Source: Lysobacterales bacterium (lineage in GTDB: Bacteria; Pseudomonadota; Gammaproteobacteria; Xanthomonadales; SZUA-36). From it: DNA of 45,452 nucleotides. Each line of letters starts with the position of its first letter. Positions within the stretch are counted from its first letter, which is position 1. A program made the translations under genes and the position numbers. Positions 20,379 to 26,835 of the stretch are shown in pieces. The notes below the pieces were generated by a model that saw nothing but the letters and a program-made list of their open reading frames with translations, ran no database searches and was not told the origin of the DNA. The stretch lies in NCBI GenBank assembly GCA_021648125.1, contig JAKITK010000021.1:1-45452 (forward strand), in the 5' to 3' direction.

Positions 20379-20717
20379 TTATGGTTTCATCTGAGAGCAG
20401 CATTGATCAATTTTGATCACTTTCAATTTTAATGAATCAATTTGATGTAGCAAGTCGGCTTTCACTTCATTTAAAAAGGTTTTTATTTTAATCCAATCAA
20501 CTTTTCCATTTTTATATGCAATCACCCCTTCCAATTTAGCCAAAGTTATTCCAAGTTGGGTGGCCTCTTTAATTAAGATAAGTAACTCAATGTCTGAGTC
20601 ATCATAAAACCGATATTTCCCAACACGACGAGGTTCTTTTATCAACTTCTTTTTTTCATAAAATCGGATTGCCTTTATGGACAAGTTGGTTTTTTTTGAA
20701 GCCTCACCTATATACAT
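20379..20717 (-). CDS. MerR-family transcriptional regulator
   Basis: 112 residues. The winged HTH reads YIGEASKKTNLSIKAIRFYEKKKLIKEPRR, then YRFYDDSDIELLILIKEATQLGITLAKL and a C-terminal coiled helix ending DQCCSQMKP. The Cys pair could sense thiols or metal, but the protein is too short to assign a class. It is probably an activator of the downstream gene through the operator at 20339-20369. Base composition is AT-rich like the following operon. Confidence 0.88.
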   Translation of the reverse strand: MYIGEASKKTNLSIKAIRFYEKKKLIKEPRRVGKYRFYDDSDIELLILIKEATQLGITLAKLEGVIAYKNGKVDWIKIKTFLNEVKADLLHQIDSLKLKVIKIDQCCSQMKP

Positions 20718-21283: not shown

Positions 21284-21394
21284 ATGTATACTTTAGTCAA
21301 CGACAATATTTTCAGCATGGGTGGCCAGCGGATAGTAGTGAAAATCATTATTGTCCTAGTGTTATATCTCCACCAATCAATACAGGGGCTGATT

Positions 21395-21724
21395 GTGACA
21401 TTTAACTTATATTTACTACTGCTAGCATTACCATATTTAGGCTTTACAACCTATGATGTATGGATGCATAAACATGATAGAGATGTCCCTCAAATTGAAA
21501 AAATACTGCATGGTATAACCCTACCCAGTATTTTAGTATTTCTGGTTTTTTCGATCATGAATAACACCATGGTTGCCAGTATAGGTTTAATAATAGCTTT
21601 TCCTTGCATGCTAGCAGATGAACTTATTTACCATAAACATTTACATATTAAAGAAAAGAAAATACACATGCTGGCTGGCCTTTCATTGCTTATTTATATT
21701 CTAGCTTGGCTATGGATGATTTAA
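21395..21724 (+). CDS. Small polytopic membrane protein, first gene of the lipid-type operon
   Basis: 109 residues from GTG 21395, which has AGGGG 6 nt upstream. The open frame extends back to ATG 21284 (146 residues), but that ATG overlaps the likely -10, TATACT. There are three to four hydrophobic helices (LYLLLLALPYLGF, ITLPSILVFLVFSI, MVASIGLIIAFPCML, MLAGLSLLIYILAWLWM) and a polar motif, YDVWMHKHDRDVPQIEK, after the first. No family name is known to me. Its 3' end overlaps the Lgt-like gene. Confidence 0.7.
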   Translation: MTFNLYLLLLALPYLGFTTYDVWMHKHDRDVPQIEKILHGITLPSILVFLVFSIMNNTMVASIGLIIAFPCMLADELIYHKHLHIKEKKIHMLAGLSLLIYILAWLWMI

Positions 21725-22461
21725 TATTAGACACAACTGGGTTTTCTATAAGTCCAATATATTTGGTCTCCATTTCATTGGCTTTCTTATTAGTTTTTGT
21801 GTTCCCACTAACCAAAGACTTCACGACTAAGAAAGAAAAAAATCAATACTTCTATCTTCAAGGCATCACCTTTATGGGAGCAATATTCGGTGCCAAATTG
21901 GCAGTATTAATGGGCGATGCGCTATGGCCAATTAAACCATTTTATCATTGGTTTGAGTTAATATTTACAGGCAAATCCATCGTTGGTGCATTATTATTCG
22001 GGTTCTTGTTCGCAGAGGCTGCCAAGCCGCTAATGGGGTATAAAAGATTACCAAATGACAGATTTGCTATCATTCTACCTTTCTCGATTGCAATTGGTAG
22101 AGTGGGTTGTTGGTTTAGTGGCTGCTGCCTGGGTCTGAAAAACACTACTGCCCTTTCACTAAAACATATAGATGGAATAAGTCGTTACCCTATAGCACCA
22201 ATCGAGATTATGTTTCACCTAATTACAGGTCTATTATTGGTTTCATTTTTTAGAAAGAAAATCTACCAAGGACAACTTTTTGCAATATTTATTATTATGT
22301 ATGGTACTTTCAGGTTCTTCTCTGAATTTATCCGTGTCACAGAAAAAGTATTTTGGGGATATTCAGCTTACCAGCTTTTTGCTATTGCACTAGTAATCGC
22401 AGGTTTGACATCTTTTATAGCCAGAAGACACAAAACCCTTGGAGAAAGTTATGCAAACTAA
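21712..22461 (+). CDS. Lgt-like (prolipoprotein diacylglyceryl transferase family) membrane protein
   Basis: 249 residues from ATG 21712 (TTG 21706 also possible), overlapping the previous stop. Multiple membrane helices surround GKSIVGALLFG, IGRVGCWFSGCCLG, YPIAPIEIMFHLITG and FRFFSEFIR, the order seen in Lgt. True Lgt has a His in the GMSFHGG loop and GRxGNFxNxE; here the His is replaced and the second motif is GRVGC...GCC. It is therefore a paralogue of the GCxxxGCCxG type, probably handling a glycerolipid but unlikely to be the housekeeping lipoprotein enzyme (inference). Confidence 0.8.
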   Translation: MDDLILDTTGFSISPIYLVSISLAFLLVFVFPLTKDFTTKKEKNQYFYLQGITFMGAIFGAKLAVLMGDALWPIKPFYHWFELIFTGKSIVGALLFGFLFAEAAKPLMGYKRLPNDRFAIILPFSIAIGRVGCWFSGCCLGLKNTTALSLKHIDGISRYPIAPIEIMFHLITGLLLVSFFRKKIYQGQLFAIFIIMYGTFRFFSEFIRVTEKVFWGYSAYQLFAIALVIAGLTSFIARRHKTLGESYAN

Positions 22462-22633
22462 CCACGATGAAGAAAATAGAAACGCTAAAGAAGAAGAAAG
22501 TAGAAACGCTAAAGAAGAAGAAAGTAGTGATACATCGAGAAGCTGTTGGGAAATGGCGTTCCTTGCTTTATGGATTTTCATTGGTGTAGTTGTATTCGTT
22601 TTTAGTGCGTGCTTTATTATTTTCAATGTATGA
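22451..22633 (+). CDS. Single-pass small membrane protein with duplicated acidic motif
   Basis: 60 residues from ATG 22451, with GGAGAAAG 2 nt upstream of it, overlapping the end of the Lgt-like gene. The cytoplasmic-type N terminus contains RNAKEEES twice, encoded by a perfect 24-bp tandem repeat (22477-22524). One hydrophobic helix follows (WEMAFLALWIFIGVVVFVFSACFIIF). It could be a small accessory subunit; no homologue is recognised. Confidence 0.55.
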   Translation: MQTNHDEENRNAKEEESRNAKEEESSDTSRSCWEMAFLALWIFIGVVVFVFSACFIIFNV

Positions 22634-22642
22634 GCCCATATT

Positions 22643-23353
22643 TTGATTCCCTTCATCAAAAATAATTTACACAAAGATATTTGCAGGGTTCCTGAGGTTC
22701 ATGCCTGTGTGCTTAATTTATATCTAAACGGGGAAGAATACCCCCACAAAGTTAATGATTATTTTCCAACCAGTGCTGTTGATAACCCAGAGTTATTAGC
22801 AACCATGAAAAGACATATGGATGATGAAGACAAACATGTTCTAATTTATCGGAAACTCATTAATAAATTAGACCAACCCATTATTGAGTTACCCATGGAT
22901 GATGTTTACAATCATGTAATTAAAAATTATACGCCGGTAAGCTTTCATATTCTTGATGACGATTCTGCAGATATAAAGACCGAAAAACTTGCCAGTTTTA
23001 TGGCGCATTTACATTTTCTTGAGTTACGCATTACTACCTCTTTACAGTTTCATGGCGAAGCCTGCCAGCACTCTCCCATTGATTATTCTGAAAAAGCCGT
23101 GTCACTGGTATTGGCTGATGAAAAAACCCATGTTGAATACACCAAAAATGCCGTGTTTGATCTACTACCCAGACAACGCGCTCTGGAAATGTTAGCAATC
23201 CATCGTGAGGCCGAGCATAAAGCCAATTTGCAATTCTCCTACCAACAGTTAAGAAAACTAGTAACCATCTACTCACATAAATTCCCAAAGTCCAGGAGAT
23301 GGATTTATAAACTTTCCAGTAGTTTACTGGAATGGAACCTAAAGCGTGGGTAA
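22643..23353 (+). CDS. Ferritin-like diiron protein
   Basis: 236 residues from TTG 22643, the only plausible start before internal Met codons. The ligand set of a four-helix diiron protein is visible: GEE (Glu31/32), E62xxH65 in MDDEDKHVLIY, Glu127 in FLELRITTS, and E160xxH163 in ADEKTHVEY. This resembles ferritin-like oxidases/oxygenases rather than storage ferritins. Its stop overlaps the GTG of the radical SAM gene, so the two are translationally coupled. It could supply redox chemistry on a lipid or protect or feed the radical SAM enzyme; the function is inferred only. Confidence 0.72.
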   Translation: MIPFIKNNLHKDICRVPEVHACVLNLYLNGEEYPHKVNDYFPTSAVDNPELLATMKRHMDDEDKHVLIYRKLINKLDQPIIELPMDDVYNHVIKNYTPVSFHILDDDSADIKTEKLASFMAHLHFLELRITTSLQFHGEACQHSPIDYSEKAVSLVLADEKTHVEYTKNAVFDLLPRQRALEMLAIHREAEHKANLQFSYQQLRKLVTIYSHKFPKSRRWIYKLSSSLLEWNLKRG

Positions 23354-24893
23354 CATTACTATCAAAAATTACCCAGATAAGAGTCATTTAGAAAGCATTA
23401 GCAAGAATTTAAAATCCTATTCTGACAAACAAGCAAAGGCAGTATTTTCACTAAGCACCAGTGATATCCTTTACAAAACAACAATCAGTGTTTGTGAAAA
23501 ATGCTTAAAACACTCAAAAGCTGCTGTATTTGAGAATAATAATAAAGTATGGATAAAGTCTATATGTAGCGAGCATGGATCATTCACCAACCTATTGGAG
23601 AATGACTCGGAATTTTATCGGCTTTCGAATAAAGATATTTGGGGTAACCGTTACACAAAAACAAATGAATTCTTTATTCCAGAATACAGCTCTTGCTGTA
23701 ACGATGATTCAAAAAGCTCCTGTATCACAAAATCTGATAACTTTACCAATCAGTTATCTAATAAAACCTGCACCGTTTTGGTTGAGATCACCAACGCATG
23801 TAATTTATCTTGCCGGGTATGCTATGCCGATGCTTCTGGCGATAAAATTTTGCCCTTTGTAGAATTTAAAGAGTACATAGGTAAATTAATTCAAGAAAAA
23901 TCCTTTATTGACTCAGTCCAAGTAACGGGAGGTGAAGCGACCATACACCCACAGTTTTGGGAAATGATTGAATGGCTTTATGAGAACAAACAAATCGGCA
24001 TAATATACATCCCAACCAACGGATTAGAATTTTCGAAACAAAGCATCGCCATAAAACTAAAAAAGATGCGGGAAAAAATTCTGGTGTTATTACAATTTGA
24101 TGGCGAACAAAAAGCAACAAACCAATCACTAAGAAGGGCTGATGTGCTCAAAGCCCGTGAAAAAACTATCAAGCTGTTGGCAAAATATAAAGTTTGCATG
24201 CAGTTAACAATGACCGTGGCACATAATCTGAGCGAAAAAGAAATCAGTTGGGTAATGCAACAAGGATTAAAGTACAAACATATACGCTTAATAGGCTTTT
24301 TACCCACATTTTATACTGGAAGGTACCAGCTGAAAAAGGATGGTAAGAACAGACCAACTTTATCAACAATAGTTCATGGATTAGTAAGGGCTTTGCCAAA
24401 AAAGTTAAAACCAGCTGACTTTACACCGATCCCTTGTTCACATCCAAATTGTGGCTGGACTACACTTTTTGCTAGAAGATTTGGTTTGCTTTTTAATATC
24501 ACCCAAAAAATCGACCTAAATGAGGTGATGAATGAGGTGGCATACAAAACCAAACTTGATAAAGACGAAATTCATGCAGTTATGGGTACAGGAAAAGCCC
24601 CTTTCCTCAGCAAGTTGATTACTGAAATTGCTAAAATATTCATCCGCCCGCAAGATATTTTTGGTGTCGCAATAAAACCATTTATGGATCAATATAACTA
24701 TGATATGGATAGAGTTTCCAATTGTTGTCATCACATATTAAAAACCAATGGAGACCTCGTGTCATTTTGTGAATACAACACACAGATTAGAATGAATGAC
24801 TCATGGAAAGACAAACAAGATATTTATGGAGCACATAAAAAAATAGCGCTTAGCGTTAACAGTAAATCCATAACAGAGCAATCTAAATGCTAG
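23346..24893 (+). CDS. Radical SAM protein, tetraether-synthase (Tes/COG1964)-like
   Basis: 515 residues from GTG 23346. The N-terminal metal-binding module has C50xxC53 ... C74xxH77 (SVCEKCLK, SICSEHGSF), as in COG1964 proteins. The SAM cluster motif CX3CX2C is C152/C156/C159 (ACNLSCRVCYA), followed by VTGGEATIHP and IPTNGLEF. The C-terminal half has PCSHPNC and a Cys-rich NCCHH...FCEYN, possible extra Fe-S ligands. Known members of this family (archaeal Tes) join hydrocarbon tails of membrane lipids. Here the substrate is unknown, but the Lgt-like and hydroxylase neighbours favour a lipid. It overlaps the next gene by 7 nt. Confidence 0.85.
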   Translation: MGNITIKNYPDKSHLESISKNLKSYSDKQAKAVFSLSTSDILYKTTISVCEKCLKHSKAAVFENNNKVWIKSICSEHGSFTNLLENDSEFYRLSNKDIWGNRYTKTNEFFIPEYSSCCNDDSKSSCITKSDNFTNQLSNKTCTVLVEITNACNLSCRVCYADASGDKILPFVEFKEYIGKLIQEKSFIDSVQVTGGEATIHPQFWEMIEWLYENKQIGIIYIPTNGLEFSKQSIAIKLKKMREKILVLLQFDGEQKATNQSLRRADVLKAREKTIKLLAKYKVCMQLTMTVAHNLSEKEISWVMQQGLKYKHIRLIGFLPTFYTGRYQLKKDGKNRPTLSTIVHGLVRALPKKLKPADFTPIPCSHPNCGWTTLFARRFGLLFNITQKIDLNEVMNEVAYKTKLDKDEIHAVMGTGKAPFLSKLITEIAKIFIRPQDIFGVAIKPFMDQYNYDMDRVSNCCHHILKTNGDLVSFCEYNTQIRMNDSWKDKQDIYGAHKKIALSVNSKSITEQSKC

Positions 24894-25636
24894 ACGGATA
24901 TATATTACAACTCTCATTAAGCCTACTAATAGGGGCCGTAATAACTTTTGCTATAGTGCTAGGGCTTGAAGAATGGAAGGTTAAATCTTCAAAGGATATA
25001 AAAAAACAAAAGTTTATTTCAATTAGCACTGTGATCCCAAATATTTTGCTGTATTTTCTGGTTACTCCATATTGGGGATTGGTTTATTTAAACTTGGAAA
25101 ACTATGCTTTGTTTCAAATATACAGCCTGTTCTGGGCAGTACCATTAGCATTAATTATGTGTGATTTTAGTTATTACTGGGAACATCGCGCAGCACATAA
25201 ATTCACATTACTCTGGAAGTTATACCACGGCACCCACCACACTGGAATAGATTTCAATATTCCTTTGGCATACCGAGTAAATGGTCTGAATTTATTAATC
25301 GCCCCTATCTTTTATCTACCCTGGGTTTTGATAGGAATTGAACCAATTTTAATTATTGGTATGCAGCTTTTCGTGTTTCATTTTCAAGGCTGGCTACATA
25401 CCAACTTAATCGGTGAAATGACCAAATTTGATAGATGGTTTAACTCTCCTGCCAATCATCGCATGCATCACAGTGCCGATATCAAACATAAGGATGTAAA
25501 CTTTGCGGCTATATTTATGCTGTGGGACAAAATATTTGGGACTTACATAAAACCAGAAAAAAATCTTCATTATGGGATTAATGGAATAGCCGAGGACAAT
25601 TCATACATTAAAGTTTATACCAGCCCTTGGAAATAA
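24887..25636 (+). CDS. Fatty acid hydroxylase / sterol desaturase family protein
   Basis: 249 residues; its ATG overlaps the radical SAM stop (ATGCTAG). It is an integral membrane protein with the non-heme diiron His boxes HRAAH (100-104), HGTHH (114-118), H171 in WLHTNL and NHRMHH (190-195). The family comprises O2-dependent C-H oxidising enzymes of sterols, fatty acids and alkylglycerols. As the last gene of the operon it probably hydroxylates or desaturates the same lipid handled by the upstream enzymes (inference). A 10-bp tandem repeat starts 4 nt after the stop. Confidence 0.88.
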   Translation: MLDGYILQLSLSLLIGAVITFAIVLGLEEWKVKSSKDIKKQKFISISTVIPNILLYFLVTPYWGLVYLNLENYALFQIYSLFWAVPLALIMCDFSYYWEHRAAHKFTLLWKLYHGTHHTGIDFNIPLAYRVNGLNLLIAPIFYLPWVLIGIEPILIIGMQLFVFHFQGWLHTNLIGEMTKFDRWFNSPANHRMHHSADIKHKDVNFAAIFMLWDKIFGTYIKPEKNLHYGINGIAEDNSYIKVYTSPWK

Positions 25637-25728: not shown

Positions 25729-26835
25729 CTACTCAAAACTGTCAGTAAATAAACATTCCTTATAAACCGTGGTATTTGCAGTTACCTCCTCAGAGTAACC
25801 ACTAGGTACGGCTGTGAAGGCATCGCTGTCAGAATCAACCACCTCTGAAGCACAGTCTGGATAAGTGCCGCCAGCATATATAGTCGCCAATTTTGAAGTG
25901 TTGCTGATGCCATTAGCATCATTTATTAGTTTACTACCCCACGCGGTAAGGGAATTAACATCCCAGTTGTTAACAATATCAATGGCTCCATAAGTCGCAT
26001 CATTACCACTCCACGACCAGCCAATATACCCATAACCAAAAGACTCGGCTAAAGACATAATTGCAGTTTCATCTACATCAAATTGTTTATGTGTTGCAGC
26101 AAATTCTCCTACCACCAAAGCCAAGCCATTATCATTAAAAGCTGACATGTAATTATTTACGGAATCATAGTTATCATAAACCTCATACATATGAACACTA
26201 AAAATTATATTAGCATCAGGATCACTATTAAAAACACGAGCTGCATTATCACGCATAATGTTTTGCCAGTCTTGTCCCCAGTTTGCGGCATCAACCATAA
26301 GTGCATGAGATAAACCCGCATTGCGTAATGAGATAATTGCCGATTTATGTTCATCAATCCATAGATCCTTCGGTACACCATTACCAAAGGGCTCATTGCC
26401 AATATTAATAATAATATAATCTTCTTGACCAATTAACACATCTTTGATCTCGATCCAATAGTTTACTGCTGATGCTAAGGTTGCCGCGCTGGTATCTTCG
26501 CCATAGCCAGTAGTATCATGTACCTCAAGAACAGCAATCAATTTATTATCTTTGGCTTTTTGAATTATATTGGCTACATCAGTTGCCAATGTTTTCTCCC
26601 AACGGTGTCCGTTAGACAACACAACACGCACGGTATTAGCACCTTTGCTGGCGATACCCGCAAAGGCATTATTAAGCGTGCTATTAAACCAGGCATGGGG
26701 GTGATTAATACCACGCATAATAAACTCATTGCCATTGCCTTCATAAAGCTTGCCACCATTCACTGAAAATCCGGCACTTGTTGTAATACTAAAAAATAGG
26801 CTACTAGCAATAACAGTGGTTATAAGTTTATTCAT
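25729..26835 (-). CDS. Secreted glycoside hydrolase family 5 (mannanase/cellulase-like)
   Basis: 368 residues with signal peptide MNKLITTVIASSLFFSITTSA. GH5 landmarks: FIMRGINHPHAWF, NTVRVVLSNG, acid/base Glu148 in INIGNEPFG, HMYEVY, nucleophile Glu244 in VVGEFAA and the C-terminal aromatic IGWSWSG. The RGINHPHAW start resembles GH5_8 beta-mannanases. After the barrel comes a ~60-residue tail with two Cys ending in CLFTDSFE, the same short F-x-x-FE type motif as in the DUF1566 protein at 11373. It probably degrades plant or algal mannan. Confidence 0.87.
   Translation of the reverse strand: MNKLITTVIASSLFFSITTSAGFSVNGGKLYEGNGNEFIMRGINHPHAWFNSTLNNAFAGIASKGANTVRVVLSNGHRWEKTLATDVANIIQKAKDNKLIAVLEVHDTTGYGEDTSAATLASAVNYWIEIKDVLIGQEDYIIINIGNEPFGNGVPKDLWIDEHKSAIISLRNAGLSHALMVDAANWGQDWQNIMRDNAARVFNSDPDANIIFSVHMYEVYDNYDSVNNYMSAFNDNGLALVVGEFAATHKQFDVDETAIMSLAESFGYGYIGWSWSGNDATYGAIDIVNNWDVNSLTAWGSKLINDANGISNTSKLATIYAGGTYPDCASEVVDSDSDAFTAVPSGYSEEVTANTTVYKECLFTDSFE

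Follow-up and report, generated by a model that had tools for sequence, protein, structure and literature searches.

A divergent Lgt-like protein, a Tes-like radical SAM protein and Cys-tailed small membrane proteins form a recurrent bacterial gene association, seen as a six-gene operon in a Lysobacterales bacterium

A six-gene operon in a Lysobacterales genome

We analyzed a 45,452-nucleotide (nt) stretch of DNA from a Lysobacterales bacterium (assembly GCA_021648125.1, contig JAKITK010000021.1, positions 1 to 45,452; hereafter the window), in which positions 21395-25636 carry six genes, here designated A to F. They encode a predicted four-helix protein (A), a divergent member of the Lgt family (B), a one-helix protein with a Cys near its C-terminus (C), a predicted ferritin-like diiron-type protein (D), a radical S-adenosylmethionine (SAM) protein resembling the tetraether synthase Tes (E) and a His-box membrane protein (F). 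In this analysis, B and E proved to be the core of a wider module, in which Cys-tailed membrane proteins recur as a third partner.

An open reading frame (ORF) check placed the six genes where the preliminary description, made from the sequence alone, had put them, all on the plus strand, with overlaps at A/B, B/C, D/E and E/F and a 9-nt gap between C and D (Table 1). Pfam assigned PF01790 (LGT) to B, PF23545 and PF04055 to E, and PF04116 to F, bearing out the Lgt-like, radical SAM and His-box identities that had been read there. No Pfam model exceeded its cut-off for A, C or D in the scan of the window proteins, and a PHROGs search with A, C, D and E returned radical SAM families for E only. 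The operon is AT-rich, as had also been described: its guanine plus cytosine (GC) content is 0.357-0.374 (21.0-26.0 kb, in 1-kb windows), against 0.39-0.48 in the adjoining 4 kb on the left side and 0.43-0.54 beyond 26.5 kb.

Table 1. Positions of the operon genes and flanking genes in the window
Feature	Position	Strand	Start and remarks
A	21395..21724	+	GTG start, nested in a longer ATG ORF beginning at 21284; 109 amino acids (aa)
B	21706..22461	+	TTG start; in-frame ATG at 21712 equally likely
C	22439..22633	+	TTG start; alternative ATG at 22451
Codon of the conserved C-terminal Cys of C	22610..22612	+	
D	22643..23353	+	TTG start
E	23346..24893	+	GTG start
F	24887..25636	+	ATG start
MerR-family regulator gene	20379..20717	-	
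GH5 cellulase-family gene	25729..26835	-	

The operon recurs in distant bacteria

We searched 250 genomes of the order for relatives of E at 1e-20 and found them in 25. Five besides that of the window are about 50% identical, and at these five loci A, B, D and E keep their order over the length that the contigs cover, so the conserved co-occurrence that had been proposed as a check on the operon is found in other genomes. We then used the E alignment for a pattern scan of 84,980 species genomes, which supplied more distant loci: among the best 80 of 122 relatives, 20 share 39-56% identity with E, after which identity drops to 32% or less. These 20, the window and locus L032 make up group I (22 loci; the duplicate loci L031, L005, L033 and L034 equal L053, L051, L069 and L054, and each pair was counted once), which spans Gammaproteobacteria, Planctomycetota, Verrucomicrobiota and Myxococcota. 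On the strand of E and no farther than 4 kb from it, D is present at 19, B at 16, A at 15 and F at 12 of the 22 loci, in a conserved order A-B-(C)-D-E, often with F.

Of the six group I loci without B, three (L051, L063 and L068) are at the end of a contig or on a short one; at L063, no D was found in the 1.6 kb upstream of E. The other three are all from Myxococcota, and each of these genomes has a group I B elsewhere: in one, B stands beside D at L168 and E stands apart at L062; in two, B is found at L163 and L165. The parts of the operon are split in these Myxococcota, not lost. The operon is nonetheless rare, since searches for D in 398 genomes from the phylum of the window and in 288 from the phylum of the L061 host each detected a single genome, the query itself. 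Rarity alone would speak for chance neighbors without a common function; with gene order kept over four phyla, overlapping genes, and parts that are split yet co-retained, we regard that explanation as practically negligible.

Window E and B have their closest counterparts in Pleionea sediminis, a member of the order Oceanospirillales (61% and 67%), counterparts from its own order (Rhodanobacteraceae, Lysobacterales) being less similar, and E was absent from three sampled genomes of the window's genus. Together with the low GC content, these observations suggest horizontal gain of the operon.

Lgt-like and Tes-like genes form the core of a wider module

The remaining pattern-scan loci and the weaker loci of the order search were sorted into groups II (50 loci, mostly Verrucomicrobiota), III (16 loci from several phyla, Brevibacillus included) and IV (nine TrsS-like loci, found in the family and order to which the window belongs). 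A quick tree of 63 E proteins, sampled from 15 of the 50 group II loci and eight of the nine group IV loci, separates each group from the other grouped rows by a branch. At 41 of 50 group II loci and 13 of 16 group III loci, but at none of the nine group IV loci, E has an Lgt-like gene on its own strand no more than 4 kb away; at eight of the nine group II loci without it, the sequence ends within 1.25 kb downstream of E, the usual position of B. Record titles of at least seven bacterial phyla are represented among the loci with the B and E pair. B and E are the core of a wider module, which the preliminary description had missed together with the conserved partner C and its C-terminal Cys. 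In clade IV (L035-L043), E is flanked at seven of the nine loci by a methyltransferase-like gene, assigned by eye, and a conserved gene of about 264 aa.

Cys-tailed membrane proteins accompany B and E

Window C is a one-helix microprotein whose juxtamembrane Cys is the seventh residue from the C-terminus (VFSAC-FIIFNV). We defined the C slot as the interval between B and D, or directly upstream of D where B is elsewhere, and looked there for small proteins whose C-terminal part has a hydrophobic helix and, among the last 2-10 residues, a Cys. Such a protein was found in the C slot of 17 of the 18 usable group I loci; only two such ORFs occur elsewhere in the same 18 loci, giving an expectation of 0.001 per slot. 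The group I counts exclude L062, where E stands alone, and L051, L063 and L068, whose contigs are short or have E at one end.

A looser rule (38-260 aa, Cys 2-16 residues from the end, 19 hydrophobic residues before Cys, within 2 kb of E or B) was applied to all groups, and the ORFs were picked without any homology criterion to C. On the same strand, Cys-tailed proteins were found at 18 of 18 group I, 37 of 50 group II, 9 of 16 group III and 0 of 9 group IV loci; with the four left-out loci taken as misses, the group I count is 18 of 22. At L062, L063 and L068 a looser threshold gave no candidate, the one match being a 40-aa ORF on the opposite strand in L063; at L055, one of two matches, far downstream, was dropped. 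Background is low: the nearby opposite strand gave a single match in all groups together, regions farther away gave 0, 0, 1 and 2 matches in 345, 711, 293 and 121 kb of strand (groups I-IV), and the surroundings of 23 other Lgt-family genes gave none in 162 kb of strand.

Eight further loci, two from a group II E search and six group III loci of the order search, were then inspected, and six of them have a Cys-tailed protein. Group II E was found in 3 of the 240 genomes searched, the query genome included. Among short loci, 7 of 13 have a Cys-tailed candidate, and 4 of the 6 further group III loci, in shorter form, already had a candidate there; L192 has no B within its 9 kb. In two Myxococcota genomes with B and E at separate places, a Cys-tailed protein was detected, at a slightly lower threshold, immediately downstream of the group I B. 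At L168 the candidate C, which overlaps B in another frame, is tentative. Taken together, these counts establish the association of B, E and C.

The group II set comprises 56 proteins, up to four per locus and up to 217 aa long, some with zinc-ribbon-like parts; Gly immediately precedes the Cys in 43 of them, and Phe is at position -3 in 30. Lys and Arg are in excess on the N-terminal side of the helix over the tail in 72 of the 88 Cys-tailed proteins of all groups. The arrangement recalls a lipobox used as a C-terminal signal, but only 7 of the 88 proteins have the strict lipobox. Five group II loci (L083, L091, L099, L104 and L105) encode three or four Cys-tailed membrane proteins each, and 16 of the 88 proteins, counted over all groups, have at least two CxxC pairs in the N-terminal part, in a zinc-ribbon-like arrangement.

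E is Tes-like but diverges from Tes

The top solved-structure match of E in a Protein Data Bank (PDB) search was Tes (7tol, E-value 3e-34). The rubredoxin-type iron motif CX2C-X20-CX2H is present in window E (C50, C53, C74 and H77) and complete in 19 of 22 group I rows, the exceptions being L050 and L066, which deviate at the His, and L068, which is cut. The radical SAM motif CX3CX2C is formed by C152, C156 and C159, and cluster-type C-terminal cysteines of E match Tes residues 455, 456 and 470 in the alignment; this iron motif and the ligand set of Tes are described in the Tes structure report (PMC9433317). At the position of the N-terminal [Fe4S4] cluster of Tes, window E has CC-x7-C and most group I rows have CC-x(4-5)-C; another cluster type may sit there.

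E reached 158.6 bits against the NCBIfam model of Tes (NF045702), whose cut-off is 450; that cut-off is exceeded by no protein of its own genome, but in 3 of 14 control genomes. A genome search found no second relative of E in its own genome at an E-value of 0.001. Because the cut-off is missed and the residues corresponding to Met439 and Tyr459 of Tes are replaced, E is, by sequence, Tes-like but not Tes. In the Tes structure report, the labile ligand Met439 is conserved in 1000 archaeal homologues, and the variants Y459F and Y459L are active (PMC9433317). The Tyr459 column holds Ile464 in window E and Ile, Leu, Met or Thr across group I; since Y459F and Y459L are active, this replacement does not rule out Tes chemistry. 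In the E tree, E groups with clades II (mostly Verrucomicrobial) and IV (TrsS-like), not with archaeal Tes (99% support in the Shimodaira-Hasegawa-like approximate likelihood ratio test, SH-aLRT; the archaeal Tes in this quick tree is a fragment on a long branch). The earlier reading of E as a Tes-like enzyme therefore stands as a statement of likeness to the best solved match, not of identity with Tes, and the phylogenetic check that it had called for connects E with the mostly Verrucomicrobial and the TrsS-like clades.

The highest NCBIfam score of E, 191.2 bits, is against the radical SAM (seleno)protein TrsS (NF045646). E might accordingly share the chemistry of the TrsS-like clade in a function outside lipids, with B and C forming a membrane anchor complex, as both this score and the grouping of E with clades IV and II rather than Tes would suggest. 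E nevertheless falls below the TrsS cut-off of 490, and clade IV has no Lgt-like gene and no Cys-tailed protein at any of its nine loci, with the methyltransferase-like neighbor instead at seven. We consider such a function distinctly improbable. Weaker scores were obtained against the peptide maturases AlbA (48 bits) and SkfB (40 bits) in NCBIfam, with 6efn at an E-value of 7e-8 in the PDB. They are consistent with a scheme in which C is a precursor of the ribosomally synthesized and post-translationally modified peptide type, its Cys receives a link made by E, and B, instead of lipidating the product, handles or exports it; that small precursor-like proteins adjoin the radical SAM enzyme fits as well. 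The Tes (158 bits) and TrsS (191 bits) scores are far higher, however, and the C proteins are membrane helices that reach 217 aa in group II and are in part zinc-ribbon-like, making a peptide maturase improbable.

B is a divergent Lgt-like protein

B exceeded the PF01790 cut-off (76.2 versus 24.9 bits) and remained below the Lgt equivalog cut-offs (TIGR00544, 43.0 versus 118.9 bits; NF000778, 47.2 versus 334 bits). When 14 Lgt-like rows were aligned with nine canonical Lgts, the equivalents of the essential Arg143 and Arg239 were retained in 14 of 14, and those of Glu243 and Arg246 were retained in groups I and II and variable in group III. In E. coli Lgt, as its structural study (PMC4728403) describes, Arg143 and Arg239 form the pocket holding the diacylglyceryl ester that the acceptor Cys attacks, Glu151 binds lipid at a first site, every tested change of His103 or Glu151 is non-functional, and the active site is on the periplasmic face. 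Window B has Val, Cys and Cys in place of His103, Asn146 and Glu151. On these residues and scores we judge that B is not an Lgt, and the action on phosphatidylglycerol that the preliminary description had carried over from Lgt cannot be assumed, His103 and Glu151 being lost.

A stronger lgt (255 bits, versus 76 for B) lies on a different contig of the same genome. Likewise, all 18 host genomes searched have a further Lgt-family match of 156-279 bits beside the divergent one of 63-116 bits. In a tree of 46 sampled Lgt-like partners (including 15 of 41 group II partners) and 10 canonical Lgts, the partners occupy one side of a branch with 99% SH-aLRT support; the partner tree repeats the three E groups, with support of just 61% for group III.

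Some genomes hold many such genes. Nine, nine and seven Lgt-family matches were found in the genomes of L064, L065 and L067 (G644, G645 and G646), whose hosts are a metagenome-assembled genome (MAG) labelled Proteobacteria and two Myxococcota MAGs; in G645 and G646, two of these Lgt-family genes adjoin other Tes-like radical SAM genes (L164 and L166). One genome, G003, has a stronger Lgt and both kinds of locus: the operon type (group I, L032), which here holds two C-type genes, and the pair type (group III, L045).

D, A and F are candidate oxygen-using or metal-binding components

In D, residues E31, E62xxH65, E127 and E160xxH163 are invariant in 17 sequences. Its AlphaFold2 model is confident (predicted local distance difference test score, pLDDT, 95.3), and its nearest folds are aldehyde-deformylating oxygenase and MiaE (Z 16.0 and 15.8), with 2.9 Å over 188 residues against 8fhc (Z 16.0); Foldseek alone gave no match at an E-value below 0.001. 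D is predicted to be a ferritin-like diiron-type protein, in keeping with its first description: the ligand set is invariant and the model matches diiron oxygenases.

A, first described as a small polytopic protein, was indeed modelled as four helices (AlphaFold2 pLDDT 96). Its conserved residues D21, H25, R29, E35, H39, D75, H80, E87 and H91 are metal-site-like, with Asp, Glu and His at helix ends on one side, a placing read from the predicted helix limits. No known family scored over its cut-off with A, a PDB sequence search gave no significant match, and fold searches gave weak matches of helix-bundle type (best Z 8.8), none convincing. In two Planctomycetes, A is a tandem double of 281-283 aa (L056, 2574-3419; L057, 5284-6135), and in two Verrucomicrobia and one Phycisphaera (L058, L059 and L061) it is two adjacent genes. 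F exceeded the PF04116 cut-off (85.8 versus 31 bits), placing it in the fatty-acid hydroxylase superfamily, and stayed below the OlsE equivalog cut-off (63 versus 475 bits).

Flanking genes

The MerR-family gene, a possible regulator, is upstream of the operon on the opposite strand. The GH5 cellulase-family gene converges on the operon from downstream, and no relative of it was found among the 20 loci of the same order that were compared.

A proposed membrane lipid or lipoprotein modification module

The reading that we favor, tentatively and short of calling it probable, is a membrane lipid or lipoprotein modification module with B, E and C as its core, extended in this lineage by D, A and F. 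We infer all chemical steps, the lipid substrate and the Cys as acceptor; that B loads lipid on C and E acts on the tail is suggested by the Tes and Lgt homologies and by the Cys at the membrane surface. B would bind a phospholipid via the retained arginines and transfer the diacylglyceryl part to the Cys at the helix end of C, or present the lipid there. E, by 5'-deoxyadenosyl radicals, would activate an unactivated C-H in the lipid tail, the outcome being coupling, desaturation or sulfur insertion, which are indistinguishable here. D and F, perhaps with A, would oxidize the same lipid in an O2-dependent tailoring, with A as a possible metal-binding membrane subunit.

Several observations weigh against this reading. 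His103 and Glu151 are kept in none of the 14 Lgt-like rows, so Lgt-type transfer by B is not assured. In E, the Met439 column is Lys in all group I rows and the N-terminal [Fe4S4] motif of Tes, C73-C77-C80-His, is not kept. A single origin of the Lgt-associated E proteins that excludes the rest was rejected by an approximately unbiased test (p ~1e-95; 49 rows versus 13, in a grouping picked after viewing the tree); since these proteins do not form one exclusive clade, the partnership of B and E was lost or gained more than once. Cys-tailed proteins were not found at 13 of 50 group II, 7 of 16 group III and two of the eight further loci, nor near E in L062, and the strict lipobox [LVI][ASTVI][GAS]C occurs in only 0 of 19 group I, 5 of 56 group II and 2 of 13 group III proteins, window C having FSAC at the site. 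A is absent from three Myxococcota genomes (it is present in the other 8 of 11 tested), and F is missing at several group I loci with room for it. Finally, D and E look cytosolic, whereas the Lgt active site is periplasmic, which leaves their access to a shared lipid unexplained.

Alternatively, the operon may make an unusual free membrane lipid, with B as a phospholipid-binding or head-group enzyme, E acting on the tails by coupling or another modification, D, F and A oxidizing, and C as a subunit or anchor. Tes as the best PDB match of E, the fatty-acid hydroxylase family of F and the predicted aldehyde-deformylating-oxygenase-like fold of D are consistent with this, as is the tail coupling that is proposed, unconfirmed, for bacterial Tes homologues (PMC8941075, PMC11868695). 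It does not account for the helix-end Cys that recurs in C of the three Lgt-associated clades, some group II loci encoding several such proteins, or for the Cys-tailed protein beside a B that is apart from E; we rate it unlikely. The earlier proposal of an unusual membrane lipid is therefore kept in part: a link to lipids is the best general reading, in which a free lipid and a lipid-modified membrane protein are now competing options. We considered plasmalogen and furan fatty acid pathways and dropped them. The iso-C15:0 reported in Pleioneaceae relatives (PMC11849500) is a lone, family-level hint, and we do not claim an iso-branched common substrate.

The lipid and lipoprotein modification module could, in a more specific form, be a second bacterial route of protein lipidation, in which Lgt-like enzymes of a separate clan lipidate a C-terminal Cys and a Tes-like enzyme then modifies or couples the tails. 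This is doubtful; if true, it would yield lipid-anchored, possibly membrane-spanning or cross-linked microproteins, and the six-gene operon would be an oxygen-using elaboration of the core.

Published counts of bacterial Tes homologues run to hundreds of genomes, and membrane-spanning or branched tetraethers have been proposed as their products without proof (PMC8941075, PMC11868695). The word 'Lgt' is absent from the main text of the Tes structure paper (PMC9433317). Our literature search, mostly open-access and without preprints, found no description of an Lgt-like partner of Tes-like enzymes or of the Cys-tailed proteins, and, within the same limits, titles and abstract openings of the C-terminal lipobox literature contained no such proteins. 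The combination of B, E and C may be an undescribed way to modify membrane lipids or lipid-anchored proteins. For several Tes-like clades, the analysis names a specific genetic partner, the Lgt-like protein from a clan of its own, together with a specific candidate substrate, the Cys-tailed membrane protein. The presence of a Tes homologue should not be equated with the making of tetraethers. The question is testable in cultured strains, for example Pleionea sediminis, Lysobacter dokdonensis and Brevibacillus massiliensis.

Comparison with known systems

E shares with Tes (GDGT-MAS, 7tol, NF045702) the rubredoxin-type motif, CX3CX2C and the cysteines at 455, 456 and 470. It differs in its score (158 versus 450 bits), in having Lys for Met439 and Ile, Leu, Met or Thr for Tyr459, and in the loss of the C73-C77-C80-His motif; unlike Tes, it is encoded beside genes for an Lgt-like and a Cys-tailed protein. 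With TrsS (NF045646), E has its highest NCBIfam score and, in common with clade IV, the C-terminal pattern KPFMD...CC...C; it misses the cut-off of 490, and clade IV lacks the Lgt-like and Cys-tailed neighbors. B resembles Lgt (PF01790) in fold family, in Arg143 and Arg239 and, in groups I and II, in Glu243 and Arg246, whereas the essential His103 and Glu151 are gone, Asn146 is Cys, the equivalog cut-offs are missed and the genome has its stronger Lgt besides. The predicted fold of D and its E...ExxH...E...ExxH set are those of aldehyde-deformylating oxygenase and MiaE, from which D differs in an identity of 8-16% among the matches listed and in having no sequence-family match over cut-off. 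Like the bacterial lipobox signal peptide, C has a helix with a Lys/Arg-richer N-terminal side and a Cys at its far end; unlike it, this element is C-terminal in the protein, the Cys being followed by 1-15 residues, and mostly lacks the consensus.

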